Source: Costus lasius (taxonomy: Eukaryota > Streptophyta > Magnoliopsida > Zingiberales > Costaceae). From it: a stretch of DNA of 64,000 bases. A program made the position numbers and the translations under genes. Below, one piece after another: positions 4,762 to 59,451 of this stretch (the first letter of the stretch is position 1; every line of letters begins with the position of its first letter). The notes beneath the pieces are model-generated. The model had not been told where the DNA came from. It did no database searches and saw nothing but the letters and a program-made list of their open reading frames with translations. The stretch lies in NCBI GenBank assembly GCA_027563935.2, contig CM050447.1:80275461-80339460 (forward strand), read 5' to 3'.

Positions 4762-6531
4762 TTATGGCTATTATTGTGGAATCTACACCATTTCTTGTTT
4801 TTGATGATTTTAAGGCAAAAAGGGCCATATTTTGATAGATTTTGAAAGATTTGAGTACACCAATGAATTCTAGACGTTGAGACGAAGCTACCCATCAAAT
4901 TTCACGAAGAACAGAGCTTCATACCAAAATACGGTAGGGCCGTAATCTAAATTACGGTACCGTATTTTCACTGCACCTATAGAACAAAACACGGCACTAC
5001 CGTAATTTCTGAGCACTATCGTATTCTAGGACGATTCTATACAGAAAGTTTTGCAAGAATTACGGCATTGCCATAATGAATTTCACGGGTCGTAATTTAA
5101 GTCTATTTTTCACCCGAGAGATTTGAGGAAAATATAGCACTACCGTAATGCATTTCACAGTACCATAATTCCTGACGATTTCTACACCGAGAACCTATGC
5201 TGAAATTACGGCACTGTCGTAACCATTTTCACGGCCATAATTACGACCCAGATGCGCGATTCTTCCGGACTTTTTGATGTCGATTCTTGCGCAGATGATT
5301 TCTCGAGATCTAGACCACCAAATTGAGATTCGAAAGAAGCTATAAACTCGTCTGAATAAGGAGAAGACGGGAGGAGGAAAAGCCCCAATTTTGATCACCA
5401 ATCGAGAGAGAAATCGAGGGAGGCATCCTTAGGGTTCGCCCTCACGCCGAGAGGCATGGAGGCCATCTCAGGGCGTGATTTTCACAAGGAAGTTTTGCCT
5501 GGAAGAGGAGAGAATACTCCAGAAGTTTCAGAGCAAAAGGAGATCAGACGGAGGAGAAATCAATGAAAGAGCGGGTGCCAGCACTGTTCACTCGCAAGAT
5601 TACGGTTGTAATTTCCATTACAGCCGTGCTGTAAAGTTTATTTCTCCTTTCTTTTGATTTTTGATCGTTCTAAACTATGGAATATTGTAATTCTTCTTCC
5701 ATGTTAGCTTAGATATCTTTTGGGACATGAGAGAGTAATTTCCTTTGATTTTATATGACTAGATAACTTTTATTTCGTCAAGATAATTTTAATATGATAA
5801 TTCTACTTTTGTGACGATTGTCTTTAATTCTCCATAGTTTCATATTATCATCATGTTTTAGAGTTTTTTGCAATATGAATTGAAAGGTGATTTGCTTGAG
5901 AACTTGGGACCCTAAAATTGATTGCTAGGTACTTACCGTAAGAAATTAGGTTAGTTCTTATTTCTCGATTTTAGAAGTATAATTGCCATGTTGATAATCT
6001 GAATCTAGGATTGAGTTACTGTGATAAACGTAGGAGGTATTGCAAGAAACTGAGTACCGGATGTTGGAGAACCTTAAGTAGAACTTGTGTTGAGATTCTG
6101 ATGCACGAAAGTGATCCTTGAGTTTCCACATGAGATAATTGACTTAAAATTCGGATGCGCGAAAGTGATCCTTGAGTTCTTTGATGATGATTCACTTTTA
6201 TTTAACAATCGAATAGATCCTGCACGAAAGCGAGGATTGGTTCTTGTAAATTGTCTGCGTGAAAGCGAGATAATTTCCTTATTTAAGTGAATTATGTCTT
6301 TATCATAATAAGATTAGACTGATGAACACATATTTATATCTAGTCATGGAAATTAAGGTGAATGAAACCTTAATCCCAGTTTCTCTTTCTAATATTTCAC
6401 ATCGTTTACTTGCATCATAATCGATTACTTAGCTAGTGAGAAAATAACTATTCGGTACTTAACAATAAGGTCTCTGTGGTTTGATATCTTTTTATTACTT
6501 TGAAGTATCTGTGCACTTGCGGACTACAATA
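4762..6531 (+). repeat. 5' LTR of element A (5' truncated)
   Basis: Aligns through its length with 18760-20517. Homology begins around attattgtggaatct, so the TGATGACA start is missing. It contains five TACGG-type inverted-repeat units (4929-5240, spacing 60-73 bp) and the hairpin series at about 5860-6275. Confidence 0.8.
5860..6275 (+). other. hairpin array in LTR A
   Basis: Predicted RNA hairpins share a GAAA loop. One example has arms ATCCT (6217-6221) and AGGAT (6233-6237). Another has arms ATTGTCT and AGATAAT (about 6250-6274). Each has a single unpaired G on the 5' side, then a 3-bp stem and the tetraloop. The array is homologous to those in the other LTRs of this window. Confidence 0.6.
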
Positions 6532-6537
6532 AGATTT

Positions 6538-7596: not shown

Positions 7597-7601
7597 CATG
7601 T
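7597..7601. repeat. target site duplication (left) of the Copia element
   Basis: catgt here matches catgt at 16675-16679 exactly, flanking the Copia insertion. Confidence 0.9.
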
Positions 7602-9266: not shown

Positions 9267-9279
9267 ATCTCCCACTTGC
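9267..9279 (-). promoter_or_regulatory. polypurine tract of the Copia element
   Basis: The minus strand reads AAGTGGGAGAT immediately before the LTR start TGTTGGGG. This is the usual Copia arrangement for plus-strand priming. Confidence 0.75.
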
Positions 9280-9286
9280 ACTTAAT

Positions 9287-13156: not shown

Positions 13157-13192
13157 ATTGAACGCTGTAGTGTTCGTTGCTGCAGTAATCTA

Positions 13193-15008: not shown

Positions 15009-15009
15009 T
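14994..15009 (-). promoter_or_regulatory. primer binding site, tRNA-iMet type, Copia element
   Basis: The minus strand reads TGGTATCAGAGCCACG two bases inside the 5' LTR, complementary to the 3' end of initiator tRNA-Met. Confidence 0.88.
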
Positions 15010-16674
15010 TGAAAGTCCCTAAAGGGGGGGGGGGGGCGAAAACCCTAATAGGCGCATATCAGAGTTTTCACAAGCGGAAGCTAGGGTTTCTAAGATCGGT
15101 TTGCATGTCATATAATCAACTTATATAGATCAAAAGAGAGATCATACCAATGCCATTTCTTGGATGGCGACTTGGAAGCAAAGAAGCGTGTGCCTCTTCT
15201 CCAAAGGAACCGCACACAAGGTGATTGATGGCTTTCTCCTTGTCGTTCCTTGTGCTAGCAAGGATCTCCAAGTCTCCTGATCGTGTGAAAGGAATGTGAT
15301 GATGTCTTTTGCTTGTCACACAACCTCCTTGGCGTGAAGACTCTCCTCACACGAGAGAGGCGTCGAAAGGAGAAGAGAGGCGAGCGTTCATCTCGAACGT
15401 GAGGCGTGAAGTCTATTTTGGAAACCATGACTTCCAAAAATAGCAAGTCATCACTTCATGCGTTCATGCGTTCATGAACCAACCACAAACTCCTTCTTTT
15501 GAACCATGCGCTCATGTGATGAGCCGGTTCAATTATATTTGGTTCAAAGACCAAATCAAACCAAGCCTTGGTCTAGATCATATAAAACCAAATGGCTCAA
15601 GATCTAACCACACATCTCTTGATGCTCTTGATCTCATCGATCTAGCATCAGTTCTCTCGATCGAAGCTTACCGATCTCAAGCCCTAATCAATCAAACATG
15701 ATCAGACCAGATCTCACTTACAATCAGAGTTTAAACTCCTTTAAACTGAACCAAAACAATTCAGTCCACACGATCTGACATAAGTAAGCCATATCATCAA
15801 ATTGTGCGACCCTAAGGGTTTCCTTTAAATGTCGGTAACGATAACTTACGTTATCACGAACAGAGAGGGGTATCTAGCAACACATCACTGTCTCCCGATA
15901 TAAAGGAAAGAGTCTTCCAAGACTACACCCAAACCATAGCACAAGTGTGAATCCAATTCACATGACATACATGTTTCCTTTGCCACTGGACGTTCTTATC
16001 GGATAAGCGTGTCAAGCCTATAAATCCAATATGATGAGAGTGGTTAGATCAGATGAACATAGTCATCTGGGTATGGCCATACACTTTCTCAACCATCTCA
16101 TCCAGGGGGCCCCTATAGAACATCACACTCCATAACAAGGAGAAGGCAATCCCATATCTATCACTAGCGCCCTAACATGACTCATGTTCATTATCCAAGA
16201 TAGTCTATAACCATTATGTTTCAAATGATATTGAACTACCTCAAGACAATGCCAATCATCATTTAGAAAAACAAGTGATCTCAAGTCAGAGGAAATATGC
16301 CACTTGCTTGCATATAAGGATTATTCACATTGTGACAAGCAATTGAATATCCTAAGTAGGGTCTGTCCAGTACATCCAATGTGCCCATGAGTCTACATCT
16401 TATTCCATGCTCGAAGCATCCTATAAGATTAGAACACATATTAGTCTCAATCATATCAAGGCTGTTTCATGTTCACCAAGATATCTCGACTAAGGACTAT
16501 ACTGCATGTCAGCCAAGCTGAACAGCATTGAGACATTATTCAGAAGTATACATATGGCAGCAGATAATGCAACAACCTGAATAACAACCATTGCCTTTAT
16601 AAACATTTAGTTTATATATGATACTGATATAATCCCAAGGCCTCAAACATTAGCCTTAAGGGCATACCCCAACA
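15010..16674 (-). repeat. 5' LTR of the Copia element
   Basis: 1665 bp, about 99 % identical by eye to 7602-9266. It would hold the promoter for minus-strand transcription; I could not fix a TATA box. Confidence 0.92.
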
Positions 16675-18667: not shown

Positions 18668-20517
18668 TGATGACAGCGAAATTTATAGTAAATTTTATGC
18701 CATTTCATATATCTTTTTGTGTCAAATTTATAAGCTTTTGCTTATTTTTATGCCTTTTTATCAATTATTGTAGAATCTATACCATTTCTTATTTTTGATG
18801 ATTTTCAGGCAAAAAAGGGCCATATTATGATAGATTTTGAAAGATTTGAGCACACCAATGAATTCCAGACATTGAGACGAAGCTACTTGTCAAATTTCAC
18901 GAAGAATAGAGCTTCAGACCAAAATACGGTAGGGCCATAATCTAAATTACGGTTCCGTATTTTCACCGCACCTACAGAACAAAACACGGTACTGCCGTAA
19001 TTTCTGAGCACTGCCATATTCTGGGATGATTATGTATAAAAGGTTTTGCAAGAATTACGGCACTACCGTAATGAATTTCACGGGCCGTAATTTAAGTCTA
19101 TTTTTCACCCGAGAGATTTGAGGAAAATACGGCACTGCCGTAATACATTTCACGGTACCGTAATTCCTGATGATTTCTGCACCAAGAACCTCTGCTGAAA
19201 TTATGGCACTGTCGTAACCATTTTTACGGCTATAATTACGACCCAGATGCGTGATTCTTCCGGACTTTTTGAAGCCGATTCTTGCGTAGACGATTTCTCA
19301 AGATCCAAACCAGTAAATTGAGATTCGAAAGAAGCTATATACTCGTCTCAACAAGGAGAAGACAAGAGGAGGAAAAGCACCAATTTTGATCACCAATCAA
19401 GAGAGAAATCGAGGGAGGCATCCTTAGGGTTCGACCTCATGCCGAGAGTCGTGGAGGCCATCTCAGGGCGTAATTTTCACAAGGAAGTTTCACCTAGAAG
19501 AGGAGAGGATACCCCAGAAGTTTCAGAGCAAAAGGAGACCAGACGGAGGAGAAATCAACGAAAGAGCGGGTGCTGGCACTGTTCACTAGCAAGATTACGG
19601 CTGTAATTTACATTACAGCCGTGTTGTAAAGTTTATTTCTCCTTTCTTTTGATTTCTGATCATTCTAAACTATGGATTATTGTAATTCTTCTTCCATGTT
19701 AGCTTAGATATCTTTTGGGACATGAGGGAGTAATTCCCTTTGATTTTATATGACTAGATAACTTTTATTTCGTCAAGATAATTTTAATATGATAATTCTA
19801 CTTTTGTGACAATTGTCTTTAATTCTCCATAGTTTCATATTATCATTATGTTTTAGAGTTTTCGCAATATGGACTGAAAGGTGATTTGCTTGAGAACTTG
19901 GAACCCTAAAATTGAATGCTAGGAACTTACCGTAAGAAATTAAGTTAGTTGTTATTTCTCGAGTTTAGAAGTATAGGTGCCATGTTGATAATCTGAATCT
20001 AGGATTGAGTTACTGTGATAAACGTAGGAGGTATTGCAAGAAATTGAGTACCGGAACGTTGGAGAACCTTAAGTAGAACATGTGTTGAGATTCAGATGCA
20101 CGAAAGTGATCCTTGAGTTTCCACATGAGATAATTGACTTAGAATTCGGATGCGCGAAAGTGATCCTTGAGTTCTTTGATGATGATTCACTTTTATTTAA
20201 CAATCGAATAGATCCTGCACGAAAGTGAGGATTGGTTCTTGTAAATTATCTGCGTGAAAGCGAGATGATTTCCTTATTTAAGTGAATTATGTCTTTATCA
20301 TAATAAGATTAGACTGACGAACACATATTTATATCTAGTCATGGAAATTAAGGTGAATGAAACCCTAGTCCCAGTTTCTCTTTCTAATGTTTTACATAAT
20401 TTCCTATCGTTTACTTAGCTAGTGAGAAAATAACTATTCAGTACTTAACAATAAGGTCTCTGTGGTTCGATATCTTTTTATTACTTCGAAGTATCCGTGC
20501 ACTTGCGAACTACAACA
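18668..20517 (+). repeat. 3' LTR of element A
   Basis: Starts TGATGACAGCG and ends CTACAACA. It contains inverted-repeat units from about 18926 and the hairpin series at about 19855-20270. Confidence 0.85.
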
Positions 20518-21204
20518 ATCCCTGCCCCGACACGACTCGACCCAAAGTCAATGAGGAAAACCTGAGTTGACCGGGGTCGGGTTCGGGGAGTCAGGGTCAA
20601 GTATGGGAACTTAGGTACCCTCCCCGCCCGCGAACCCGAACCCTCCCTGCTATGTATAATTATTAAAATACCCATTTTATAACATAAACCTAACCCTAAT
20701 TTCTACCCTCCCCTCTCTCTTCTTCCACTCCAAATCCCCGCCGCCACTCTTCTCTTCCTTCCCTCTCGTTGCCCCTTTCTCCACTTCTCTTTCTTCCCTC
20801 TTCCTCTCCTCCCTTCTACCACCTTCCACTCTCCTCTTCCTCCCTTCCCGGCCTCACTTCTCCTCTCCTTACCCACACGCCACTCGCGTCGCCCTTCTCA
20901 CGCAGCACTCGCCAGCCGCTGCCGCTTGCATCGCAACCCTCACCGGCCGCCACTGCTCATGTCATAGCCCTCGCCGGTCGACGTTGCTAGCTGCTCACTG
21001 CTCCACCCTTGCTACCTCTGTTGCCAATGAATCACCCGCTGCTCCCATGGTACTACGAGGTTAGGTTTACCCGCGGGTACCCGATTCCCCAATGGGGTTG
21101 GGTTTGGGGTGGGTTTTTTCAACCCCGCCAGGTTTGAGGTTGGGGTCGGGTAGTAAATTCAGGTGTTGGGGTCGAGGTCGGGTTTGGCACTCTCCGCCTC
21201 CGCC
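20518..21204. repeat. GC-rich low-complexity insert, possible DNA transposon
   Basis: GGGTCGGG/CCCGACCC-type motifs border a CT-rich interior (20700-21050). It separates LTR A from the MYB/SANT-like pseudogene. Ends and a target duplication could not be defined. Short open frames here look like low-complexity artefacts. Confidence 0.4.
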
Positions 21205-23657: not shown

Positions 23658-25507
23658 TGATGACACCGAAATTTATAGTAAATTTCATGCCATTTTATAT
23701 ATCTTTTCGTGTCAAATTCATACTACTTTGCTTATTTTTATGCCTTTTTTTATCAAATATTACACAATCTACTTCTATTTTAGTTTTTCATGATTTTCAA
23801 ATAAAAAGTACCATATTTTGATGGATTTTGGAAGATCTGAGTGCACTAATGGATTCCAGACGTCGAAACGAAGCCGTCCGCCAATTTTCATGCAAATCGG
23901 AGCAAGTTCAAAAATTACACCCCAGGTGTAATATTTATTACGGGTGTAATTTTCTGCCCAAAAAAATGGCACTGCCGTAAGAAATTATACTGGCCATAGT
24001 TTAGAGCGATTTCCGACTAGAGAGTTCAGTTAAAATTATGGCACTGCCATAATTTAAATTACGGCCGTAATTTTTACTTGGACACGCAAGTTTTTCGGGC
24101 CCGAATCTTACGCGGACCATATCTTGAGATTTAGAGCTCCAAATTGAGATCCAAAAGAAGCTGTGGACTCGTCTCGACGAGAAGAAGATAAAAGGACCAA
24201 AAGCCCTAGTTTTTAGGATGAATTGAGAGAGCAATCAACAGAGAGGTGCTTAGGGTTTGGCTTCGCGTCGAGAGGCGAGGAGGCCACCTCAGGCCATGGT
24301 TTTACACAGAAGCTTCGCCTGGAGGAGGAGAGTATATCCCATAAGTTTCAGAGTGAAAGGAGATCAATTGGAGGAGAAATCAGTAAAAGAAGGGCTCAGG
24401 CACTATTCATAGCGAGTTTTCGAAGGAAATTACGGCTGTAATTTCTATTACAGCCGTGTTGTAACGTTATTTCTCCTTTCTCTTGGTTTTCTGATCACTC
24501 TGAAACTATGATTCATTGTATTTCTTCTTCCATGCTTGCTTAAACATCTTTTGGGACATAGGGTGTAATCCCTTTGATTTTATATGATTAGATAACTTTT
24601 ATTTCGTCAGAATAGTTTTATTATAATGATTCTACTTGTGTGATGACTTGTCTTTAATTCTCCTTAGTTTTCTTAGTATCATGCATGATTATAGAGTTTT
24701 CACAATATGGACTGAAAAGTGATTTGTTTGAGAACTTGGAACCCTAAAATTGAACAATAGGAACTCACCGTAAGAAATTAGGTTAAATTCTTATTTCTTG
24801 ATTTTAGTAGTTTAATTGCCATGTTAGATAATTCTAATATATGATTGAGTTATTGTGTCAAACGTGGAGATCTTGTACGAAAGCAAAGATTGGAACGTTG
24901 GAGAACCATAAGTAGAACTTGTGTTGAGACTCGGATGCATGAAAGTGATCCTTGAGATTCCACTTGAGATGTTCAACTTAGAATTTGGATGCACGAAAGT
25001 GATCCTTGAATTCTTTGATTGATGATTTAATTATCTTCAGCGTTGGGATAGATCTTGCGCGAAAGCAAGGATTGGTCCCTGCATGATTGTCTGCACGAAA
25101 GTGAGATAATCCCTTTATGAAGTAAATTATATCTTTATCATAATAAAATTAGACTGATGACCTTTTCTTCATATCTAGTCATTAAAATTAAAGTGGATGA
25201 AACCCTAGTCCCAGTTTATCTCTCTGTTTATCTTTACACTCTTTCTATTATTTACTTGCATCATATTCGATTTGTTTAGCTAGTAAGAAAATAATTATTT
25301 GGTACTTAACAATAAGGTCTCTGTGGGTTCGATATCTATTTTATTACTTCGAGTATCCGTGCACTTGCGGAAATAACAACAAGGTTGGTGACACAACAAG
25401 TTTTTGGAGCTGTGTCGGGGAGTGACAAGTCCCCGTGTGCCAAACAATAAGTTTTGGCCGCGACACCAGAGATAAGTTTTTATCTACCTACTTGTTGGGA
25501 TACAACA
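23658..25507 (+). repeat. 5' LTR of element B
   Basis: 1850 bp, TGATGACACC...GATACAACA. Compared with A and C it has about 130 bp extra at the 3' end (25380-25507), also present in its 3' LTR. It carries TACGG-type inverted repeats (about 23913-24080) and the hairpin array. Confidence 0.88.
24696..25111 (+). other. hairpin array, mostly GNRA-capped, in LTR B
   Basis: Six predicted hairpins are present. HP1 (24696-24735) has inner stem ACT/AGT around GAAA. HP2 (24870-24890) has arms ATCTT/AAGAT. HP3 (24933-24951) has arms GGAT/ATCC. HP4 (24980-25014) adds outer arms AGAATTT/GAATTCT. HP5 is at 25052-25072. HP6 (25085-25111) has arms GATTGTCT/AGATAATC. All have a GAAA loop, and most have an unpaired G on the 5' side of the inner 3-bp stem. 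The other LTRs have the same series with compensatory changes. Confidence 0.7.
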
Positions 25508-25513
25508 AGTTTT

Positions 25514-25531
25514 TGGCACCGTTGCCGGGGA
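25514..25531 (+). promoter_or_regulatory. primer binding site, tRNA-Asp type, element B
   Basis: TGGCACCGTTGCCGGGGA matches the tRNA-Asp complement at 17 of 18 positions, 6 nt after the LTR. Confidence 0.78.
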
Positions 25532-25768
25532 CCTTAGTTTTGTTAATATCAAAATAGTTGTTAGTATTGCTAGACTAAGTTTTATTTGTTTTAGATTTAA
25601 CTTTGTTTTCTATTTTTTGCAGGTTTTGGATTTTCACAGTTGTGATAGAACTGTGATTTCTGAAATTTGTGAATTTACTTATGTTTTATATTTTCTATTT
25701 TTTTATATATTCTGAAAAAAAAATTTGATTGATTGGTCTTGAATAATTTTTTTGTTCTTGATAGATTT

Positions 25769-27051
25769 GAAGATATGTCTTATATTCACAACGCATGGGT
25801 AACTAAAAGAGGTGAGGTATACATGCCACAAGAAAAGTATGAAGTTGATTCATTGTGCACTCTTACTGATAATTTGAAATTTCATTCTTATATGCACCCT
25901 GTTAGAACATCTTATTCTGCTTATTATATGTGATATTTGTGGATGTTTTGATCATTGTACTTCTGATTGTCAAATTTTAATTCCTCCAAATCCCAATTTA
26001 TTATGGAACGAATATGATCAATATTATTCTAGATGGGAAAATCATATTTCTTTTTATGATGATTGCTCAAATCATGTTTCTGAACCATACTTTGAAGATA
26101 CTGAGAAATCTAGGTTAGAATCCATGCTTGAAAAATTCATGTCAAATCAAAACCAATTTATGACAAATCAAAATAAGGAAATTGAAGATCTTAAGGAGAT
26201 AATTGGTCAGCTTGCTTCTAATGTAGAATTTATATCTGCTCATTCTGAATTTTTAGAAACCCAGTTAGCACAACAAGCTTGTTTATTTGAGTATGAAACT
26301 GAAGAACTTGATTTAGAAAATTCCCCCTCTGATTATGATTGTTTTGAGATTGAGCCTTATGTGAACTTTAATAAATCTCACTCTGATTTTGATGATTGTA
26401 AAATTGATTCATCTGATAATTTATTTGTGGAAAAGTTTGAAAAAATTAATTTTGTTAAATCTTCTTTTGATTCTAGTGATAGTTTTGAAACTGATTCTTT
26501 CGATGATATATCATTCGTGGTTAAATCTAAGGAAACATATGAGGGGACTGATTTAGAAAAGTCTTACTCTGATTTTGTTGATAACTTTGAAATTGATAAA
26601 TTATTTGATGATGAACATGAGGAACTTGAAAAGGATTTGAATATTTCAAACATTGATGTATCTCACTCTGATGTTTTGCCCATATACTGTTGAATCTTCT
26701 GATTTCATTGAAAATTTATGTTTTATTGAGGAATCTAATTTGAGACAAAAAGTTTATTTTTATGATCCAATGCTTATATCTTTTGATCAAAGTCCTATGG
26801 CAATTGAAAATATAATTTTGAAGAAAGGACTAATGATTTTACTCTCTGATAAATTTAGAAAGATCATTGAATATCCTTTATATGAAGTTGAAAATTTTGA
26901 TTTTGATTTCTGCATATTTGAGAAAGCCATGTCAATTGTGATTTATTTAAAATTTTGGATATTTGAATTAGTGGCTAAACTTTTTGGACAACAAAAAAGA
27001 AAGAAATTACATGTTATTTACTTTGGAACTAATTCACCTGCTTCACCATGA
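25769..27051 (+). pseudogene. gag-derived remnant with acidic extension, element B
   Basis: Three overlapping frames make up this remnant. The first (to 25933) matches the part of Athila gag after the capsid domain (DMSYIHNAWVTKRGEVY against LNHNQWTTERGVLY of element E). The second is open from about 25929 to 26693. It begins with a perfect CX2CX4HX4C zinc knuckle (CDICGCFDHCTSDC), then a Tyr/Asn-rich linker, a coiled coil (QNKEIEDLKEIIGQLASNVE) also present in C, and a long Asp/Glu/Ser-rich tail with recurring SDF/DSF units. A single-base shift near 26690 leads into the third frame, ending at 27051. No protease or pol motif follows. Its nucleic-acid-binding role is inferred from the knuckle. 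The acidic tail has no match I recognise and may be specific to this non-autonomous group. Confidence 0.65.
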
Positions 27052-27204: not shown

Positions 27205-27540
27205 ATACGGCACTACCGTAATCTGTTTCACGGTACCGTAATTTTGGCGATTTCTTCCCCTGATAGTTTTTCATCTTTTACGGTACTATCGTAATGCACT
27301 TTACGGTACCATATTTTCGGCCTATTTTTGAACAGAAAGTTTTATGGCTTTTACGGCACTACTGTAACATTTTTAACGTACCGTAATTTTTAGCAAATTT
27401 TGATCCGAGAATTCTTTGAAAAATACAGTAGTACCGTAATATATTTTACGGTACCATAATTTTGGCTATTTTTTTTACCCGTGAGTTCTTTGAACATTAC
27501 GGCACTGCCGTAAGGAATTTCACGGTACCATATTTTAAAA
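27205..27540 (+). repeat. internal array of TACGG inverted-repeat units, element B
   Basis: Five units start near 27205, 27278, 27351, 27423 and 27496, a spacing of 72-73 bp. Each has a TTACGGCACTGCCGTAA-type half followed by a TTACGGTACCGTAAT-type half, with mutations. Confidence 0.78.
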
Positions 27541-29788: not shown

Positions 29789-31633
29789 TGATGACACCGA
29801 AATTTATAGTAAATTTCATGTCATTTTATATATCTTTTCGTATCAAATTCATACACCTTGCTTATTTTTATGCCTTTTTTTATCAAATATTATAAAATCT
29901 ACTTCTATTTTAGTTTTTCATTATTTTTAAATAAAAAGTACCATATATTGATGGATTTTGGACTATCTGAGTGCACCAATGGATTCCAGACGTTGAAACG
30001 AAGTTGTCCGCCAATTTTCATGCAAATCAGAGGAATTTTAAAAATTACACCCCGGGTGCAATATTTATTACGGGTGTAATTTTCTGCCCAGAAAAATGGC
30101 ATTGCCATAAGAAATTACACAGGCCGTAATTTAGAGCGATCTCCGACCAGAGAGTTCAGTTGAAATTACGGCACTGCCGTAATTTAAATTACGACTGTAA
30201 TTTTTACCTGGACACGCGAGTTTTTCGGGCCTGAATCTTGCGCGGACCATATCTTGAGATTTAGAGCTCCAAATTAAGATATGAAAGATGCTGCAGACTC
30301 GTCTCGATGAGGAGAAGATAAAGGGACCAAAAGCCCTAACTTTTAGGATGAATCGAGAGAGCAATCGACAGAGAGGCGCTTAGGGTTCGGCTTCACGCCG
30401 AGAGGCGTGGAGGCCACCTCAGGCCGTGATTTTTACACAAAAGCTTCGGCTGGAGGAGGAGAGGATATTCCAGAAGTTTCAGAGTAAAAGGAGATCAATT
30501 GGAGGAGGAATCAATGAAAGAAGGGCTCAGGCACTATTCACAACGAGTTTTCGAAGCAAATTACGGCTATAATTTCTATTACAGCCGTGTTTTAACGTTA
30601 TTTCTCCTTTCTCTTGGTTTTCTGATCACTTTGAGACTATGATTCATTGTGTTTCTTCTTCCATGCTTGCTTAAACATCTTTTGGGACATAGGGTGTAAT
30701 CCCTTTGATTTTATATGATTAGATAACTTTTATTTCGTTAGAATAGTTTTATTATGATGATTTTACTTGTGTGATGACTTGTCTTTAATTCTCCTTAGTT
30801 TTCTTATTATCATACATGATTATAGAGTTTTCGCAATATGGACTGAAAAGTGATTTGCTTGAGAACTTGGAACCCTAAAATTGAACAATAGGAACTTACC
30901 GTAAGAAATTAGGTTAATTCTTATTTCTTGATTTTAGTAGTTTAATTGCCATGTTAGATAATTCAAATCTAGGATTGAGTTATTGTGTCAAACGTGGAGA
31001 TCTTGTGCGAAAGTAAGAATCGGAACGTTGGAGAACCATAAGTAGAACTTGTGTTGAGACTCGGATGCACGAAAGTGATCCTTGAGATTCCACTTGAGAT
31101 GTTCAACTTAGAATTCGGATGCACAAAAGTGATCTTTAAATTCTTTGATTGATGATTTACTTATCTTCAGCGTTGGGATAGATCTTGTGCGAAAGCGAGG
31201 ATTGGTCCCTATATGATTGTCTGCACGAAAGTGAGATAATCCCTTTATGAGTAAATTATATCTTTATCATAATAAAATTAGACTGACGACATTTTCTTCA
31301 TATCTAGTCATTAAAATTAAAGTGGATGAAACCCTAGTCCTAGTTTATCTCTCTGTTTATCTTTACACTCTTTCTATTATTTACTTGCATCATATATTTG
31401 CTTAGCTAGTAAGAAAATAATTATTTGGTACTTAACAATAAGGTCTCTATAGGTTCGATATCTATTTTATTACTTTGAGTATCCGTGTACTTGCGAAAAT
31501 AACAACAAGCTTGGTGACACAACAAGTTTTTTGAGCCGTGTCGGGGAGTGACAAGTCCCCGTGTGCCAAACAATAAGTTTTGTTCGTGACACCAGAGATA
31601 AGTTTTTGTCTACCTACTTGTTGGGATACAACA
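29789..31633 (+). repeat. 3' LTR of element B
   Basis: About 1845 bp, similar along its length to the 5' LTR with scattered substitutions. It carries the hairpin array at about 30828-31245. Confidence 0.88.
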
Positions 31634-35400: not shown

Positions 35401-35749
35401 TACTCCCTCGAATGAACTCAAGCTAGGAGAAAGAAGAATTTGTGCGCCATTCTTGGCGCCGAACCCGTCGCCATCGAACAATCCACCGTCCTCCACTCCC
35501 CGTTCTCTTCCTCCACGTCGTAAATCGAACAAACAGATGGAACCAAAAAAAGGATCGCAAAAAACACAGATTCTTTGCTTCGAATTCAAGCATTTCGCTT
35601 CTTTCTTCCATCTCCCAGCAATTATTATTCTCTCGATCAATTCGAGCAACACTAATTCTTGATTTTTCTCTGATCCGGATTGCTCTGCATCGTCGATGCA
35701 AGATATATGACCCCTCGGTGAGGAGCAAAGGTGGATCAATTCTTCACTC

Positions 35750-40480: not shown

Positions 40481-41966
40481 TGATGTCTGGTATTCATATA
40501 AGATTTATACTATACTTTTTATGCATAATTTTTTCTATTCTTATCATGGTTTTACTTATTTTGACTAATATCTTTTTCTTTATTCAGAATCTTTACATCT
40601 TTTCGCTTTTATTATACTTTACCTGAAAATGACTATATTTTGATAGATTTTGAAGAAACCAAGTGCACAAATGAATTCTACAAGTCCAGACGAATTGCCC
40701 ATCAAATTTTGTGCAAATCATAGCTTATTTGAAGAATATGTCCTGCCCGTACTTTTTATCACGGCCGTATTTTCTGGAAGGGCACAGAAAGAAATATGGC
40801 TCACCGGTGATGAAAATCACGGCCGTGATTTGTTGAAGAAAATCCACATATGGAAATATGACCTGCCTATGATCATTTTCACAGTCGTATTTGTGTCAGG
40901 TTTTATTTCCAGAAGACATAGAAAGAAATACAACCAGACCGTATTTATAATCACGACCGTATTTCTGTCCACAAAACTCGAGTTAGACTCGATTTCTCGC
41001 TTGATTTGATTCCTTTTGACGCCAAATTTTGGGAAAAACCTATTCTAAGGATGGAGAACTATATAAGGAAGCTTTAGAGCAATTATCAAAACTTTTTGGC
41101 TAATTTTCAAGCGAAATTTGATAAAGAAGCGAGAGTTAGGGCGACAGCCGGCGAGCAGCGTTTCATCACCAGAAAAGCTTTGATTTTCTGGCTGGCTGGC
41201 GTCAATCTTCATTAGGAAGCCTTACACTTTATCTTCCTAGTTGATTCTAATTTTATTTTGCCAATTATAATTAAAAACATGGATTTTTATAATGTTGATA
41301 TATTACTATGTCAACGTAAACTTATTATTCAGGATTATGGTTGTAACCCACTATATTTTCATGACTTGATATTTGATTTCTTTCTTATGAAGTAGTTTGC
41401 TTGTGTTTGATTCAATTATTGTTGTGCTAATTACATGTTGATTACTGGCCATAATTTGCATACTTAGAGATGTTGCAAGAAGTACTGAGAGGTGAATTGC
41501 GATGTCAGATCTATAGTTTTTGGACAAGTTGATTCGAACACGAGAGTAGTTCGAATCGACTTGAGGGATTTCATAGATTTGTCAAGAACCCATTGGGTTT
41601 ATCTCAAATTAATAACCACAAGAGTAGAGGATTAATTCGGATAGACACCGGATTATACTACTGAGAGGGGGCAATTTGTACATGCGGATAAATCCCCTTC
41701 GGCACAGTAAATCCTTATTTAGATATTTTTTTAATTAGAAAAGACATGAAACACAGTGTGGTGAACCCGAAGTCTTGAATTTCCATCAAATTGATTACAA
41801 CCAAAGTCTGTTTTACTAATTCTTCAATTTAGTTAAGACAAAAACCACTCTTTTTATAGATTAGTCTAGCTAACGATCTTAAGTAGTGTCAATACTTAGC
41901 CATTGGTCCCTGTGAGATCGATATTTTTATTACTTTGATTTGTCCATGCACTTGCGGAACACATCA
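40481..41966 (+). repeat. 5' LTR of element D
   Basis: It ends CACTTGCGGAACACATCA. Inverted-repeat units have the form CACGGCCGT in this family (40740-40970). The hairpin series begins at 41469. Confidence 0.65.
41469..41562 (+). other. GNRA-capped hairpins in LTR D
   Basis: HP1 (41469-41506) has arms GATGTTGCAA/TTGCGATGTC and an inner ACT-GAGA-GGT. The next hairpin (41526-41562) has 13-bp arms, AAGTTGATTCGAA and TTCGAATCGACTT, around CAC-GAGA-GTA. Confidence 0.7.
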
Positions 41967-45635: not shown

Positions 45636-47481
45636 TGATGACTCAAAAATTCATATTATATTTTATATTGATTGTTTAGTTTTTTTGAGTCATATTTATG
45701 CTCTTTTGCTCTTTTTTAAGCCTTATTTGTCAAATATTTTGAAATCTACACCTCTTCTTATTTTTAATCAATTTCAGGTAGAAAAGGCTAAATTTTGATG
45801 GACTTTTGAATAATATGACTACAAGAACGAAATCCAACCATTAAGAGGGAACTACTTGCAAATTTTCAAGCAAATTGGGGTTTTCGGCGAAATTACAGCA
45901 GGGCCGTAATTAATATTATGGGCATGATTTTACTGGGACCTATAGAATAAATCATGGCACCGCCGTGATTATTTCTTCAACCGTGGTTTCTGGAGATTTT
46001 TGCATAGGAATGATTATGGCACAGCCGTAAATTTTATTACGGCCATAATTTTATCAGGGAGAAATTGAAGCGATCACGGCACTACCATGATTTTTATTGT
46101 GGGCCGTAATTGTTCTATGATTTTGCATAGAGAAGATTACGGTACTGCTGTAATTTATTCCACAGCCGTAATTCCGAATATTTGCCCAAGTCTTCCGTGA
46201 GTTACTATAGTCGGATTTTGCGAAGTCGAATCCAGGAGATTTAGGACATGATTTCAAAATCAGAAAGAAGGGGGAGGATCTATAAGAGGAGGAGAAGATT
46301 TCAAGATGAAAATCCCCAATTTTTATCCACAACGGAAGGAGAAATCAAAGAGATCGCTGCCGCCTTAGGGTTCTTCACCGAGAGACATACAGAGCATCTT
46401 AGAAGACAAAATTTTTAGGGAAGCTATGCTTAGCGGAGGAGAAGACATCCAGAAAGTCTCATATCAGGAAGAGTTCGATCGAAGGAGAAATCAACAAAAG
46501 AGTAGTGGCGACTACTATTCATCGACGAACGCTGCTTCTCTTCTTCATCAGATTACGGGCTGTGAAATTTTTCACACCCTTGTAACATCAGTAACCCTAA
46601 TGTTTCCTTCTTTGAATTTTGATTTTTTTTTTAGATGAATAATTATTGTATTTCTTCCATCATGATAGCATAAAAACCTTCTTGGGACATGAGGGAGTAA
46701 TCCTCTTAATTTCTGAAATGACTAGATGATTTTTATTTTGTCAAGTTATTCTTCGATATGATAATTTTACTTAAGTGATAATTGTCTTTAATCTTTTCTA
46801 GTTTCAAGTATCAGCATGTTTTAGAGTTTGTAACATGTATTGAGAGGTGACTTACAATACTCGGAAACCTTAAATAATGGTTTTAGGAACTTAGGCTATG
46901 AGAATAGATTTGTTCTTAAATCATGATTTTTGATAAATTCTTGTTGATAATTTGATCTAGGAACTTTTATTGATTTAGACATGAAAATATGTATCCAGAA
47001 GTGATTTGGATTGTTGGAAACCCTTAAGTGAAACCTGTGAAATTAAGATATGAGAATATTTAATTTTGCTTGAGATGCTGACTAAGAGTTAAGTCACGAA
47101 GGTGATTTTTAACTTTCTTTGTCTGATTTACTTATTTGAAACACTGAATAGCAAGTCACGAGAGTGAAAGTTATTCGGTGTAAATTGTTCATCCGAGAGG
47201 AGGCAATTTCTTTATAAGTAAATTTAATCTTTATCATAACAAGAATAGCTGATAAACACTTATTTATGTCTAGTCATAACAATTAAGAAGGATGAAACCC
47301 TAGTCCTAAAATTTTCTCTATGATAATCTGTAACAATTTTCGATCATAGCTTACGACTTATTTCGCTATACATCGTTCGCTTAGCTAGTGAGAACACAAT
47401 AATTTAGTACTTAACACGTAGGTCCCTGTGGGTTCGATATCTTTTATTACTTCGAGTATCCGTGCACTTGCAGACACAACA
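45636..47481 (+). repeat. 5' LTR of element E
   Basis: 1846 bp, TGATGACTC...GACACAACA. It contains TACGG-type and CACGG-type inverted repeats (45890-46180) and hairpins at 46824-47209. Confidence 0.8.
46824..47209 (+). other. hairpin series in LTR E
   Basis: HP1 (46824-46862) has arms GAGTTTGTAA/TTACAATACTC. Further hairpins are at 47087-47114 (inner TCAC/GTGA, loop GAAG), 47142-47180 (arms CACTGAATAGC/GTTATTCGGTG, inner TCAC-GAGA-GTGA) and 47182-47209 (AAATTG/CAATTT, inner TCC-GAGA-GGA). Confidence 0.7.
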
Positions 47482-49265: not shown

Positions 49266-50626
49266 AGCTTTAGGGATTTTCGCCCAAAATTAATGGATTT
49301 TAGAAGATTTGAAGATATGGAACGAATCCTAATGATGAGACGAAGCTACATATCAATTTTATGATCAAACGGAGCATTCTACAATCTTCATGGGCATGAC
49401 TGTGTATCCATACTTGGCCGTGAATGATCCTACATTTCCAGACTCCACCGAGATCTTCACAAGCGTGCCATCCATCTATGCATGACCGTGAAGATGTTGG
49501 CCCAACTTTTCAGATTTCGACAAGAAATTCACGGGTACACTCGTGAATGCATTCATGGCTGTGAAGAGTTCACAGTCTAGTTTTAGAGTTCGCCGAGGTC
49601 TTCACGGGCATGGCCATGCATCCATGCACGGCCGTGAAATCTTTCGCAGTCGTGACACCCATTCAGTTTTTCACTTGATTCTTGCTATTTTTGGAACAAA
49701 ATTTCAGGAAACTTGGTGGAGACCTTCCGAACTTACCCACAAATAATTTGGGATGGGAATCAAGTGTTTTCGTGGAGCAAAGAGGGAGAACGAAAGCGAA
49801 CGGTTACAACTAGGGTTTGGCGAAAATCCTAACAACGAGGTTGTTCCGGCACGATTTTTTCCTCGTTTTGATGCTAAAGATCGTGCTCCACCCTCCCCCA
49901 TCATAGATCTAGCCTTCTTTTGGTTTGATTTGATTTTTCTTGAGAAATTTCATGAAAGTTATAGCGTAAACTCTTTTCAAGATTTTGGCGTAGCCCATTG
50001 TAATGATGTTGATTGCTAATGCTTAATTAATACATTGCTTGAGTTTATTGTTGTTCTTATTCAATCTTATCACATCTATTTCATATTATTGCATCGGCCA
50101 TGCTTTCATATATTTTAGACGTTGTGGGAAGTACTGAGAGGTGAACCACAACGTCGGAACCCTTAAGATTGGACTTATAATTTTGACCACGAAAGTAGGT
50201 CAAAATTATTCGAGGAATTAATAATTCTTCACGGAACTCAATGGATCTACTTAACCTAGTAAGCCACGAGAGTAGGAGGCTTGGGTTAAGTTAAATACTG
50301 GATTGTGGCCTGAGAGATGATCTGTACACTAGGAAGAATTTCTTTAAGGGCATAGAATAAACGAACTTAACCCTTTAGCATCATCTTTCCATTATTCTTC
50401 AGTGTACTGAAACCTAAAACCCTAATTTTCTCTCAAGAATTTTCACACCTTTGTTTGTTCTTGATTTGTTCGATTTTACTTTCTTGCAATTATATTACAC
50501 ATCTCATCATTATTTGATCGTCTAGCTTTCAATTGATTAATTAGTTAGTACTTGACCCCTTAGTCTACGAGGAATTGATTTTTTTTTATTACACAACAGA
50601 ACCATGCACTTGCGGTACGGCCTATC
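49266..50626 (+). repeat. LTR fragment F of another Athila-like family
   Basis: It starts in mid-LTR (gggattttcgcccaaaatt) and ends near cacttgcggtacggcctatca. Inverted repeats are of the type CACGGCCGTG and GGCATGGCCATGC (49380-49650). The hairpins at 50118-50291 are the longest in the window. No internal region follows, so it is a solo or truncated LTR. Confidence 0.7.
50118..50291 (+). other. GNRA-capped hairpins in LTR F
   Basis: HP1 (50118-50155) has 10-bp arms GACGTTGTGG/CCACAACGTC and an inner ACT-GAGA-GGT. The next (50177-50209) has 11-bp perfect arms ATAATTTTGAC/GTCAAAATTAT around CAC-GAAA-GTA. The third (50249-50291) pairs ACTTAACC/GGTTAAGT and AAGCC/GGCTT around a GAGA loop. Confidence 0.75.
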
Positions 50627-54547: not shown

Positions 54548-54685
54548 CCTTAGTTCTTGTTGATATTGAAGATATTGAGAATTTTGCTAGACTAGGTTTT
54601 ATTTATGTTTTACCTTTCTATCCTTTTATGTTTATTTGAGTTGTTTGATCCATCTACTTTAGTGTACACAGAAAATCTAGATCAG

Positions 54686-55978
54686 ATGACAGATCAGAGA
54701 TTATTAAGGGACTATGCAGCCCCTAAGCCACGAGAAATATACTTCAGCATTGTCAGACCAACTATTGAAGTAGATAATTTTGAGATCAATCCTGCCTTCT
54801 TGACCATAATTCAGCAGAACCAATTTGGAGGGGATCCAATTGAAGATCCATATCAGCATTTACATCTTTTTATCGAATATTATGATACCATTAAAATTTA
54901 TGGAGTTTCTGATGATGCACTAAAACTAAGATTGTTTCCTTTTTCTCTCAGGGACCGGGCGCGATATTGGCTACATTCTAGACCAGCTGGTGTTTTCACA
55001 ACATGGGAACAACTGTCAAATACTTTCCTGATGAAGTACTTTCCACCGATTAAAACCATCCAATTGAGAAATCAAATAACAAGCTTTAAACAGAAGGATG
55101 GAGAATCATTCAGCAAGGCATGGGAGCGATTCAATGATTTACAACGGAAGTGCCCTCACCATAGCCTTGAAAATTGGGTTTTAATTCATACCTTTTATTA
55201 TGGACTACTTTATAACACCCATCTAATCGTTGATGCTGCTGCAGGAGGAGCCCTCATGGGCAAGACCATTGAAGAAGCTTTCAACCTATTTGAAGAAATT
55301 TCCCTGAACCATAACCAATGGAACCTTGAAGAAGAACTGCTATATTGCGATGGTAAGGATGAAAGCGAGGATTGCCAACCCCTAACTGAAAAGGTAAGTT
55401 CTCTCAGTATAGAATCTTTTCTTGATAAGTTTATGACAAATCAAAGTCTTGTCATGCAAACTCAAAACAAAGAAATTGAAGATCTGAATGAAATGATTGG
55501 TCGACTTGCCTCTCAAGTGGAATTATTAACTATTCACAATAAAACTTTAGAAGATCAAATTCCTGATGAATACTGCAATACTATCATGACTAGAAGTGGG
55601 AAACAATTAGGAGAACCTAGAAGGAAAGTTGCGAACAATGAAGAAGAGCTTGATGATAACCACGAAAGGAAACTAGAGTTAGGAAAATCTTCTTCACATG
55701 AGGAGTTCCAAACTTGTTTACAACCTCAAAAAGGTGATGAACCATGTAGTGATGAACCATGTGAGAGAGATAATCCTATACCTAATTTGTCTCCTCTTTA
55801 CAAGCCACCTATACCCTTTCCTCAAAGGTTAATGCAAGAAAAGTTAGACAAACAATTCGGGAGATTTCTAGATGTTTTGAAAAAGCTTTACATTAACATT
55901 CCATTTACTGAAGCTTTATCTCAAATGCCCACATATGCTAAATTCTTGAAAGAAATACTGTCTAATAAGAGAAAATAG
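54686..55978 (+). CDS. Athila-like gag, element C
   Basis: A gag frame of about 430 residues from the ATG at 54686 (MTDQRLLRDYAAPKPREIYF); the frame is open further upstream, but family alignment with D and E supports this start. It contains the retrotransposon gag domain (IIQQNQFGGDPIEDPYQHLH, LRLFPFSLRDRARYWLHS, FPPIKTIQLRNQITSFKQ), a coiled coil (QTQNKEIEDLNEMIGRLA) and a Pro-rich C-terminus (YKPPIPFPQRLMQEKLDKQF). Gag forms the particle shell. The CCHC zinc knuckle found in B, and in broken form in D and E, is absent; the sequence jumps from LTEKVSSLS to the coiled coil. The frame ends at a TAG (55976-55978), where a one-base shift would lead into protease. In relatives gag and pol are one frame. 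Confidence 0.88.
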   Translation: MTDQRLLRDYAAPKPREIYFSIVRPTIEVDNFEINPAFLTIIQQNQFGGDPIEDPYQHLHLFIEYYDTIKIYGVSDDALKLRLFPFSLRDRARYWLHSRPAGVFTTWEQLSNTFLMKYFPPIKTIQLRNQITSFKQKDGESFSKAWERFNDLQRKCPHHSLENWVLIHTFYYGLLYNTHLIVDAAAGGALMGKTIEEAFNLFEEISLNHNQWNLEEELLYCDGKDESEDCQPLTEKVSSLSIESFLDKFMTNQSLVMQTQNKEIEDLNEMIGRLASQVELLTIHNKTLEDQIPDEYCNTIMTRSGKQLGEPRRKVANNEEELDDNHERKLELGKSSSHEEFQTCLQPQKGDEPCSDEPCERDNPIPNLSPLYKPPIPFPQRLMQEKLDKQFGRFLDVLKKLYINIPFTEALSQMPTYAKFLKEILSNKRK

Positions 55979-57828
55979 AGGACTATGGCATTGTTGCTTT
56001 AACCGAGGAATGTAGTGCTGTTATCCAAAACAAAACACCACCCAAATTGAAAGATCCAGGTAGTTTTTCTATCCCTTGTTTTATTGGCAGTATGGCTTTT
56101 GACCGAGCCTTATGTGATTTGGGGGCTAGTGTGAGCCTAATGTCATTATCTGTATGTAGGAGATTGGACATGGGAGAGCTCAAGCCGATTTCTATATCTT
56201 TGCAGCTCGCCGATCGCTCAGTGAAGTATCCAGTAGGTATTCTTGAGGATATTCCTATCCAAGTTGGTAAGTATTTTGTGCCTACTGATTTTGTGGTTCT
56301 TGAAATAGAGGAAGATGCGAAAATTCCTATTATCCTTGGTAGACCATTCTTAGCCACTGTTGGAGCACTTATTGATGTAAAGAATGGTAAACTCACTCTA
56401 AATATTGGTGATAACAAAATTGAGTTTGATTTGAACAATTCACTAAAAAAACCTGCATATACTAGTTCTTGCTGTAGCATTCGTGGTGTTGATGATGTAG
56501 TTTATGATTTTGGTCTTTTGTTTGATTCTTGTTCTACTTCTGATTCTTGTGAAAATTCAAATGCTGAAGTTGATGATTCTGACTTTGATGATGATTCTTG
56601 TAATGAAACTCGTGATATTGTAGACTGTGCCGCATTAGACGATGAAAAAGAAAAAATTCCAAAAGTTGAATTGAAAGCTTTACCTGATAACCTTAGATAT
56701 GAATTTCTTGGTCCTAACTCCACTTACCCTGTGATTTTTGATGCACAACTAAATGAAAGGGAAACTGATCTGCTCTTAAAGGAGCTGAGGATTCATAGAA
56801 AGGTAATTGGGTATACCATTGATGACCTGAAGGGAATTAATCCTTCTTTTTGTATGCACAAGATCTTGATGGAAGAAGAACACAAGCCACATGTAGATTT
56901 CCAAAGAAGACTGAACCCCTCCATGAAAGAAGTTGTAAAGAAAGAGGTTCTGAAATTACTTGATGCAGGTATTATCTATCCTATATCTGATAGCAAATGG
57001 GTAAGTCCTGTACATTGTGTTCCTAAAAAGGGAGGTGTCACTGTAATGAAAAATAAGGATAATGAGTTGATACCTGTTAGAACAGTCACTAGTTGGCGTA
57101 TGTGTATTGATTATAGAAAATTAAATACTGCTACTAGAAAAGATCATTTTCGCTTGCCTTTTATTGATCAAATGGTTGAGAGGCTTGCTAAACACTCTTA
57201 CTTTTATTTTCTTGATGGATATTCCGGATTTTTTCAGATTCCCATTCATCCTGATGATCAGGATAAGACCACCTTTACATGTCCATATGGTACTTTTGTT
57301 TATAGAAGAATGCCCTTTGGTTTGTGCAATGCACCTGCTACTTTTCAGATATGCATGATGACTATCTTTTCTGATTTTATTGAAGATTTTATGCATGTAT
57401 TTATGAATGATTTCTCAATATATGGTTCCTCTTTTGATGTTTGTTTGACTAATCTATCTTGGGTTTTACAGAGATGCGAAGAAACTAACCTTGTCTTGAA
57501 TTGGGAAAAGTGTCACTTTATGGTTAGACAGGGAATAGTTTTAGGTCATCTTATTTCAGAGAGAGGGATTGAAGTGGACAAAGCCAAGATAGAAATAATT
57601 GAGAAGTTGGCTCCACCCACCATTGTCAAGGAGATTAGGAGTTTTTTGGGACATGCAAGGTTTTACAGGAGATTCATCAGGGACTTCTCTAAACTTGCTA
57701 AACCCCTGATTGATTTACTTTGTAAAGATGCCAAATTCTGCTTTGATGAGAAATGTCTGTTTGCTTTTCAGGAACTAAAGAAAGCCCTGACATTAGCACC
57801 CATCATGCAACCACCTAACTGGGAGTAA
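55978..57828 (+). pseudogene. Athila-like protease and reverse transcriptase, element C
   Basis: This frame directly follows gag, shifted by one base. Aspartic protease is marked by ALCDLGASVSLM (active Asp in DLGA) and IPIILGRPFLAT. A linker of about 150 residues is acidic. RT runs from LLDAGIIYPISDSKWVSPVH through MCIDYRKLN and RLPFIDQMVERL to MPFGLCNAPATFQ, FMNDFSIYG, VLNWEKCHFMV and FYRRFIRDFSKLAKPL. The catalytic motif is FMND where family members usually have FMDD or YVDD; the Asn codon is at 57406-57408. The frame ends at TAA 57826-57828, and a TAG follows at 57835-57837, before RNase H in the same frame. This would be the copying enzyme, but the RT change and stops suggest it is inactive. 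Confidence 0.9.
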
Positions 57829-57837
57829 CCTTTTTAG

Positions 57838-59451
57838 CTTATGTGTGATGCCAGTGACTATGCAGTGGGAGCAGTTCTAGGGCAAAGGAAGGAAAAGAAG
57901 CATTATGTGATCTCTTATGCCAGTAAAACTTTAGATGAAACACAAAGGAATTACACCACTACTGAGAAGGAGTTGTTGGCTATAGTTTTTGCATTTGACA
58001 AATTCAGATCTTACTTGATAAATTCGAAAGTTGTAGTATATACTGATCGTGCTGCTGTTAAATATTTGATACAGAAGAAAGACAGTAAGCCATGGTTGTT
58101 GAGATGGATTTTGCTTCTGCAAGAATTTGACCTGGAAATCAAAGATAAGAAAGGAACCGAGAACCTTGTTGCAGATCATCTTTCAAGAATAATGGTAGAT
58201 ACTGAAAAGAATGATGAGATCAATGATTCCTTCCCTGAAGAACAACTCTTAGCCATTGAACAACTCAAACCCCCCTGGTATACTGACATAGTGAATTATC
58301 TTGTAGCCGATATTTTTCCTCCTGATTTAAGCTACCAAAAAAGAAAAAGATTTTTGGCTAAAGTGAAACATTATTTTTGGGATGAGCCTTATGTGTTTAG
58401 AAGATGTGCAGATAGAATTTTTAGAAAATGTGTACCTGAAGAAGAAATTGCAGATATTTTGCTTCAATGCCATGGATCCTCCTATGGTGAACATGCTAGT
58501 ACTGAAAAGACTGCTTTCAAAGTGTTACAATCAGGATTTTATTGGCCCATAATTTTTAAAGATGCTAGAAACTTTGTGTTATCTTGTGATAAATGTCAGA
58601 AGTCTGGGAACATTAACAGAAGATATGAAATGCCACTGTCCAATATTCTTGAAGTTGAGATATTTGATGTTTGGGGGATTGACTTCATGAGACCTTTCCC
58701 ATCTTCAGGAGGTAACAAGTACATTCTTGTAGTAGTTGATTATGTCTCAAAATGGGTTGAAGCCCTCGCTTCACCAACCAATGATTCGAGAGTTGTTACT
58801 AAACTATTTAAAAGAATTATCTTTCCATGATATGGGACACCACGAGTAGTGATCAGTGATGGAGGATCGCATTTCATAGAACACAAATTTTCAGCCTTAC
58901 TCAAGAAATATGGAGTAAATCATAGAGTTGCAACACCTTATCACCCCCAAACAAGTGGACAGGTTGAGATATCAAACAGAGAGATCAAAGGAATTCTAGA
59001 AAAAATAGTGTCACACACTAGAAAAGACTGGGCATTCAAACTTGATGATGCATTATGGGCTTACCGAACTGCTTTCAAAACACCCATAGGTATGTCTCCT
59101 TTACAGTTGGTCTATGGAAAATCATGTCACCTTCCTGTAGAGCTCGAGCATAAAGCATACTGGGCAATCAAGATGCTGAATTTCGATTTGAAGAACGCGG
59201 GTGAAAAACGGAGATTGCAATTAAATGAGCTAGATGAGATCAGACTTTCTGCATATGAAAATGCAAGAATTTACAAAGAAAGAACTAAAAGATGGCATGA
59301 TCAACATATTCTCAGAAGAAATTTCCAACCAGGTGACTTTGCTCTTTTGTTCAATTCTAGATTGAGACTTTTTCCTGGAAAACTTAAGTCTCGATGGTCT
59401 AGGCCTTTTCAGGTAAAAAAGGCTTACCCTTACGGAGCCGTAGACATATAG
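57838..59451 (+). pseudogene. Athila-like RNase H and integrase, element C
   Basis: Same frame as RT. RNase H shows [40 protein letters not shown] and [10 protein letters not shown], so the D-E-D-D set is present. Integrase has an N-terminal zinc region (CHGSSYGEH ... CDKCQ), then the core with [20 protein letters not shown] and [12 protein letters not shown], which hold the D, D and E catalytic residues. C-terminal parts are [37 protein letters not shown] and [15 protein letters not shown] at 58828-58830 splits integrase, and a TAG at 59449-59451 ends the frame slightly early; a related reading continues to about 59555. The catalytic residues are kept, so the damage is limited to stops. Confidence 0.9.

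Follow-up and report, generated by a model that had tools for sequence, protein, structure and literature searches.

The long terminal repeats (LTRs) of six related retrotransposons in a 64,000-base stretch of the Costus lasius genome (C2:80275461-80339460 of a 1.279 Gb host genome; hereafter, the window) each contain, in their last third and on the sense strand, a series of up to six hairpins with GAAA or GAGA loops. These hairpins covary across genomic copies, are biased toward the sense strand, keep a conserved tip, and are retained in elements that lack a match to capsid or polymerase. We propose that a tRNA-Asp-primed Ty3/gypsy lineage carries in its LTRs, in the form of these arrays, a conserved structured RNA element and that the arrays act, with a probability that we put at about one half, as a multivalent cis-acting leader signal, the most likely purpose of which is the selection of genomic RNA by Gag.

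The elements of the window are of the plant Ty3/gypsy type; a gag homology search returned 559 proteins and, among the best 120 listed, the named sources are flowering plants. Comparison of the window with itself delimited three LTR pairs, A (from 4770, and 18668-20518), B (23658-25507 and 29789-31633) and C (53491-54523 and 60979-62861), and three single copies, E (from 45636), D (to approximately 41968) and F (approximately 49400-50620). The order gag, protease, reverse transcriptase (RT), RNase H, integrase is complete in C only, where reading frames and tblastn place it in three plus-strand frames (gag, protease-RT and RNase H-integrase; 54596..58827). By tblastn, parts of gag, protease and RT are present in D, parts of gag in E, a gag tail in B and none of these in A, and searches with the C frames and pieces of a related frame found no match to capsid or polymerase in A and B of the window. 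B has a 271-codon plus-strand frame (25878..26690) with gag-tail similarity and a CCHC knuckle, which at 25929 is the one match to the CCHC pattern in the three plus frames; the pattern scan found no such knuckle in the gag frame of C. In the parts of A that were tested, the longest frame has at most 127 codons. Nested in A is a copia element (7601-16674) with 99% identical LTRs and two minus-strand frames (9287-13189) that span gag to RT, and elsewhere a frame with a RING-H2 finger (35711-36754) is probably a host gene or gene fragment. On the minus strand, antisense to gag in D, E and C, there are matches to the Rfam family snoR71 (42611-42717, 48159-48265 and 55061-55167; E-values 8e-5 to 2e-9), a family that may represent retrotransposon DNA rather than a snoRNA.

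Primer binding sites of a type that we assign to tRNA-Asp (PMC1142308) were found with at most three mismatches at five places in the window, as against none in shuffled sequence. The site of B (25510..25532, plus strand) lies about 6 bases past the LTR end, and those at 6534, 41969, 47484 and 54526 follow A5, D, E and C5, respectively; none within three mismatches occurs near F. Every window element with a primer site has its array on the 5′ side of that site. Diaspora and Calypso elements of the Athila lineage likewise have a tRNA-Asp primer site a few bases past the LTR and the gag-pol order, and a term search of the text of the paper on them yielded no mention of a hairpin, secondary structure or leader (PMC1142308). 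At its end (25380-25507), the B LTR has additional sequence that includes ACAACAAGTTTTTGG and a degenerate copy resembling a primer site, as though this LTR had been extended beyond an older end. Upstream of the arrays, the LTRs also contain seven copies of the palindrome ACGGCCGT (24061, 40761, 40819, 49628, 61545, 61915 and 61933; 0.10 expected), and tandem units with bases akin to it occupy 27206-27536 and 61254-61412.

In LTR B5 the hairpins span 24695-25111 on the plus strand. HP1 (24695..24736) is an extended stem with a 3′ UU bulge and the tip ACU-GAAA-AGU; HP2 (24869..24891) consists of 6 bp, a bulged G, 3 bp and a GAAA loop; HP3 (24926..24960) has a stem, a 3′ UU bulge, GGAU/AUCC, a bulged G, 3 bp and GAAA, and HP4 (24980..25014) has the same form; HP5 (25045..25079), for which the evidence is weaker, is a two-part stem with a bulged G and GAAA; and HP6 (25085..25111) has 8 bp, a bulged G, 3 bp and GAAA. 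Around HP3 and HP4, a closing stem of moderate support, P0, pairs 24894..24904 with 25034..25044. The first bases of its 5′ arm could alternatively pair with ACGT just upstream of HP2, but this extension of HP2 (ACGU/ACGU) was rejected as not significant (reached by the null in 35 of 300 simulations on paired cells and in 164 on pairs). The corresponding plus-strand arrays are those of A5 (5879..6276, from the HP1 core to HP6), A3 (19873..20271), B3 (30842..31241), C5 (54003..54246) and C3 (62187..62584). Throughout A-C, the tips of HP2-HP6 comprise a 5′ bulged G, three pairs and a GARA loop, and HP3 and HP4 have the extra UU bulge on the 3′ side. C5 is without HP1 because this LTR copy lacks that stretch, and HP1 of C is a diverged form; the sequence AYTGARARGTGA occurs exactly in HP1 at seven places (A5, A3, B5, B3, D, E and F). 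The area near HP1 was inspected by eye for a GAAA tetraloop receptor, an idea that was dropped since D-F do not conserve the candidate bases. Past HP6, the segment 25120-25240 is also strongly conserved in A, B, C and E, and additional structure may be present there.

The plus-strand hairpins of E follow the order seen in A-C with different stems: HP1 lies at 46824..46862, HP3 (47037..47069) reads AAAUUAA-G-AUAU-GAGA-AUAU-UUAAUUU, a different sequence of like form, and HP4-HP6 occupy 47086..47209. In D and F, HP1 is accompanied by two inner hairpins with the tip AC-GARA-GU and an unpaired A on the 3′ side, one D loop being AAGA. In D these are HP1 (41469..41506, plus strand), a long hairpin with the tip AC-GAGA-GU and the 3′ bulged A (41525..41563) and, identified by eye, a third hairpin with the tip AC-AAGA-GU-A (41608..41636). 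In F they are HP1 (50118..50155, plus strand), a 12-bp hairpin with AC-GAAA-GU and the 3′ bulged A (50177..50209) and a third with the tip CC-AC-GAGA-GU-A-GG (50249..50291), which is paired but shows no double change among the 30 F copies; in its two inner hairpins, A occupies the unpaired position in 27 of 30 and 30 of 30 copies. An earlier reading of the sequence alone had put the B5 hairpins in the right place and had noted their GAAA and GAGA loops and their position in the last third of the LTR. Its unpaired 5′ G holds for A-C and gives way to a 3′ A in the inner hairpins of D and F; its series of up to six hairpins in all LTRs holds generally, with C5 as the exception for HP1; and its stems of 11 bp in F and 13 bp in D had to be corrected to 12 and 15 bp outside the tip.

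The tip is nearly invariant on stems that are not. Among A3, B5 and C3, differences fall in only 1 of 20 columns of the loops and in 0 of 5 of the bulges, compared with 41 of 122 paired columns and 30 of 94 others; over the 63 A-C copies the contrast in mean identity is smaller (0.956 for loops, 0.978 for the bulge, 0.920 for paired and 0.899 for other columns). The bulge is G at 308 of 315 places of A-C, and the loops are GAAA or GAGA at 303 of 340 places, misaligned E cells included, with A in place of the first G in 21 of the 37 exceptions. A fixed tip on a stem of free sequence is the pattern of a hairpin that is read by a ligand. Moreover, the tip differs as a set between lineages, with the 5′ bulged G in A-C and the 3′ bulged A in D and F.

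For the analysis of covariation, 94 loci were collected from the genome (30 B-type, 30 F-type, 30 C-type and 4 E-type). Seven window copies together with 28 B, 29 C and four E loci make up the A/B/C/E set (n = 68), after the window's own copies (L003 and L063) were counted once and L005 (identical to B3) was removed; an earlier run of 50 rows used 10 of the 29 C loci and still included L005. The F set (n = 30) comprises its own copy and 29 loci. All copies come from one genome, family copies share history, and the alignments were made with MAFFT without use of structure; the null fixed the number of changes per column on a FastTree tree and started from the commonest pair. In the A/B/C/E set, 94.7% of the cells in the 61 pairs of HP2-HP6 are paired (null mean 76.2, largest 84.3), 20 of the 61 pairs changed on both sides (mean 9.3, largest 17 in 300 simulations), and there are 162 double-changed cells (null 34, largest 128). 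None of 300 simulations was as high for any of these three measures at a transition bias of 2, 4 or 10, whereas the number of pair types was not robust, being matched in 0, 5 and 70 of 300, respectively. When partners were slid by 1-3 columns, 32-49% of cells were paired.

Taken singly, the hairpins differ in strength: the null reached the observed paired cells in 0 of 300 simulations for HP2, 2 for HP3, 0 for HP4, 9 for HP5, 0 for HP6 and 10 for P0, and the observed number of double-changed pairs in 2 for HP2 and 4 for HP4 but in 42, 70, 78 and 105 for HP3, HP5, HP6 and P0, for which this number is not above the null. Support for HP5 and for P0 is weak. In F, 9 of 40 pairs are double-changed (null 2.9, largest 7; 0 of 500), with 24 double-changed cells (null 4.2, largest 16; 0 of 500); the 94.75% of cells paired was reached in 1 of 500 simulations at bias 4 and in 28 of 500 at bias 10. 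Among the slid controls, paired cells fell below the null, although F slid by +3 was also high in double changes (6 pairs, 3 of 60; 16 cells, 0 of 60), for which we offer no explanation beyond repeated bases in the stems. The HP1 homologue covaries within F; across families (98 copies), HP1 is not significant (41, 84 and 18 of 300 for paired cells, pairs and cells), and its outer arms in A-C are offset in the alignment from those in D-F. A separate tool applied to the first, 7-row alignment found 17 double-changed pairs (shuffled mean 8.9, 0 of 500; slid 0-7) and 92.1% of cells paired compared with 87.2% in shuffles, with no excess of pair types (43 compared with 44.6). The sequence-only reading had held that paired changes in the stems imply selection on RNA structure and had set a larger alignment as the check. 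That check bears it out for the 30 F and the 68 A/B/C/E copies, if not for each hairpin alone, and so does the following excess of G-U pairs.

A G-U pair holds on the sense RNA and an A-C pair on neither strand, a sense A-C being an antisense G-U. One-sided changes shared by at least three copies produce 36 G-U and 20 A-C in A/B/C/E and 14 and 7 in F (50:27 in total); those in two copies give 4 and 6, and 2 and 3 (6:9), and those in one copy 2 and 9, and 5 and 7 (7:16). With variants tallied per column and base, and hence not fully independent, the shared ratio has a binomial p of 0.012 and differs from the single-copy ratio with a Fisher p of 0.004. Since shared changes favor G-U over A-C and private ones do not, selection most likely acted on the sense RNA before insertion. 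Furthermore, changed pairs are still paired in 19 of 23 cases between A3 and B5, 19 of 23 between A3 and C3 and 8 of 12 between B5 and C3, compared with 6 of 16 between the 5′ and 3′ LTRs of one element (A, B and C summed), which can differ only through changes that postdate insertion or conversion. The structure was thus maintained during activity and decays afterwards.

The form of the hairpins is also rare by chance. A strict motif, in which an outer stem of 4 bp or more is followed by a 5′ bulged G and by a 3-bp inner stem with a GNRA loop, occurs 17 times on the plus strand of the 64,000 bases, always within the arrays of A, B and C, and once on the minus strand; 50 dinucleotide shuffles had a mean of 0.48 and at most 3. 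A looser definition was found 35 times on the plus strand (16 in arrays, which total 2,406 of the 64,000 window bases) and 15 times on the minus strand (0 in arrays), and was discarded as window-wide evidence for being too permissive (shuffled windows: mean 23.6, largest 32). Within individual arrays, it is rare in 1000 shuffles of A3 (2), B5 (9), B3 (9), C3 (3) and E (3) but not of A5 (184), C5 (142), D (127) and F (139). Sliding-window folding z-scores were likewise abandoned as a discriminator, with 21 windows below -4 on the plus strand and 22 on the minus, and the array means are alike on both strands for most arrays. Folding energies thus fail to single out the arrays, and it is their specific form, together with covariation, that carries the case.

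Both A and B retain the array in spite of lacking a match to capsid or polymerase. Of 30 B-type arrays, 15 have B-type internal DNA as the best match within the following 1.5 kb (a count that includes the own copy and two matches of only 89 bases), 4 have gag-type internal DNA of C, D or E, and 11 have no match; a primer-site-like match follows 9 of the 30. At one locus (L009), a B-type LTR precedes gag-type internal DNA, and non-autonomous copies may therefore have borrowed their LTRs. With this caveat, the retention of the array by elements without coding content points to a role in cis in replication rather than in gag translation. A-type pairs approximately 6.0 kb apart on one strand occur at C2 99.78 Mb and C7 57.95 Mb, and a first look at the genome returned 5657 candidates for A, 4402 for B, 5321 for C, 2598 for D, 3135 for E and 1863 for F, in sets that may overlap and of which only about 40 per family were scored.

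With respect to mechanism, we hypothesize that sense transcription, from a start that we infer, places the arrays in the leader at the 5′ end of the genomic RNA, in R-U5 upstream of the primer site; if within R, the array would also stand at the 3′ end of the RNA. In keeping with a leader position, TATA-like boxes precede HP1 by 420-560 bases in B, D and E (in B and E by eye); in A3 one lies 840 bases upstream, and none was found in C3 and F. Each hairpin would present a fixed tip, namely GARA, a short stem and one unpaired purine at its base, on a pairing stem of free sequence, and the multivalent array would then most likely be read by a protein, for which the nucleic-acid-binding part of the element's own Gag is our candidate. 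Gag would in this way select for particles the genomic RNA and the RNAs of non-autonomous relatives. Against this proposal, in addition to the possible borrowing of LTRs and the limits of the covariation results given above, retroviral packaging signals are mostly downstream of the primer site, and the gag frame of C shows no CCHC knuckle. Still more tentatively, the arrays might constitute a new class of signal in which up to six hairpins show one tip to one ligand, the tip being retuned in each lineage as it co-evolves with its own Gag, while autonomous and non-autonomous elements compete for particles.

Several other functions deserve consideration. The hairpins could control translation by shaping scanning, shunting or internal ribosome entry in a long leader, which in B would cover about 1.3 kb from the TATA-like box to the LTR end. 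In A-C an AUG stands at the bulge of HP3 in 62 of 63 copies and of HP4 in 61 of 63 and opens a six-codon frame that ends in UGA, and the long structured leaders of plant pararetroviruses are described as acting so (PMC5902531). However, this AUG is present in 0 of 5 E copies, which led us to drop an upstream frame as the main reading, and is absent from the hairpins of D and F; moreover A, with no frame above 127 codons, has little to translate and yet keeps its array, so that we consider translation control unlikely. Somewhat less probable again is a role in RNA stability, export or escape from silencing, in which a host protein would bind the array or the array would shield an RNA end. A many-copy GARA array differs from the usual form of an Evade-type motif, no Rfam family matched, and no U-rich internal loops were seen by eye. 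On the other hand, B has an AATAAA at 25142, 31 bases past HP6, and its array may thus also lie close to the RNA 3′ end. The plant copia element Evade uses a structured motif in its 3′ UTR that joins the poly(A) tail in a triple helix (PMC12501189).

Hairpins in R-U5 might instead aid reverse transcription through primer placement, strand transfer or choice of the poly(A) site, consistent with their position 5′ of the primer site and with the conserved stem-loops described in long retroviral R regions (PMC3601003); such a role does not need repeats of one tip form, and we regard it as improbable. Finally, the arrays could be products of chance or DNA palindromes (cruciforms, or tandem copies of one inverted repeat) devoid of RNA function. 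HP3 and HP4 do share a core and look duplicated, and the folding z-scores are no better on the plus strand; but covariation exceeds the tree null, G-U exceeds A-C in shared and not in private changes, and the strict motif favors the plus strand 17 to 1, which makes this last explanation very improbable.

In retroviruses, hairpins of the leader that serve RNA selection are already known, and the coat-protein operator of MS2-type phages combines a stem, one bulged purine, a short tip stem and a fixed tetraloop. The resemblance of the arrays to the latter, with another host and another loop, is one of form and an analogy only. Closer parallels are the GACG hairpin pair of the gammaretroviral core packaging signal and SL2/SL3 of HIV-1, likewise adjacent leader hairpins with fixed tetraloops; there, the nucleocapsid knuckles of HIV-1 and MoMuLV bind exposed guanosines (PMC7599994), whereas binding of the Costus hairpins by Gag is a proposal. 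The Costus arrays differ further in having up to six hairpins, GARA loops and a bulged purine below a short tip stem, and in lying inside the LTR, upstream of the primer site. The Ty1 and Ty3 cis regions defined with mini-Ty donor-helper assays are also near the RNA 5′ end and serve protein-less elements in trans, but the available passages describe no repeated tip motif and packaging sequences that are not precisely defined (PMC4974528). The ENE of Evade is, like the arrays, a structured RNA of a plant LTR retrotransposon that matters for mobility, and differs in being a poly(A) triple helix in the 3′ UTR of a copia element (PMC12501189). The accessible text of a review of plant LTR retrotransposons names packaging and uses no term for stem-loop, hairpin, dimerisation or secondary structure (PMC12786077), and an LTR survey is reported, in the part consulted, to have been unable to model plant Metaviridae LTRs (PMC3601003).

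Rfam 15 yielded no family match to the arrays (relaxed threshold on B, curated threshold on the window), two sub-threshold matches only in a relaxed search of F, and, among the curated-threshold matches in the window, none to a hammerhead family such as a retrozyme would have. The open-access literature searched describes no such array in its listings or passages, in agreement with the initial impression that none had been reported, and viral contigs gave no match to the primer-site pattern, two hairpin patterns or the RT protein. We regard the form of the array and its host group as new. A search of genome contigs returned plant-type gypsy contigs without LTR arrays in two bacterial assemblies, Solirubrobacter and Geminicoccus (L001 and L002; one frame of about 2000 codons, 99.7% alike), which are likely contamination of both assemblies.

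LTR retrotransposons make up a large share of many plant genomes and, to our knowledge, hardly anything is known of how they pick RNA for particles. The maintenance of hairpin form while stem sequence changed suggests a recognition signal that is needed for the copying of these elements, and an array defined by sequence and covariation makes the question of RNA selection directly testable. If Gag-mediated selection through the arrays is true, it would explain how protein-less elements ride on their relatives.
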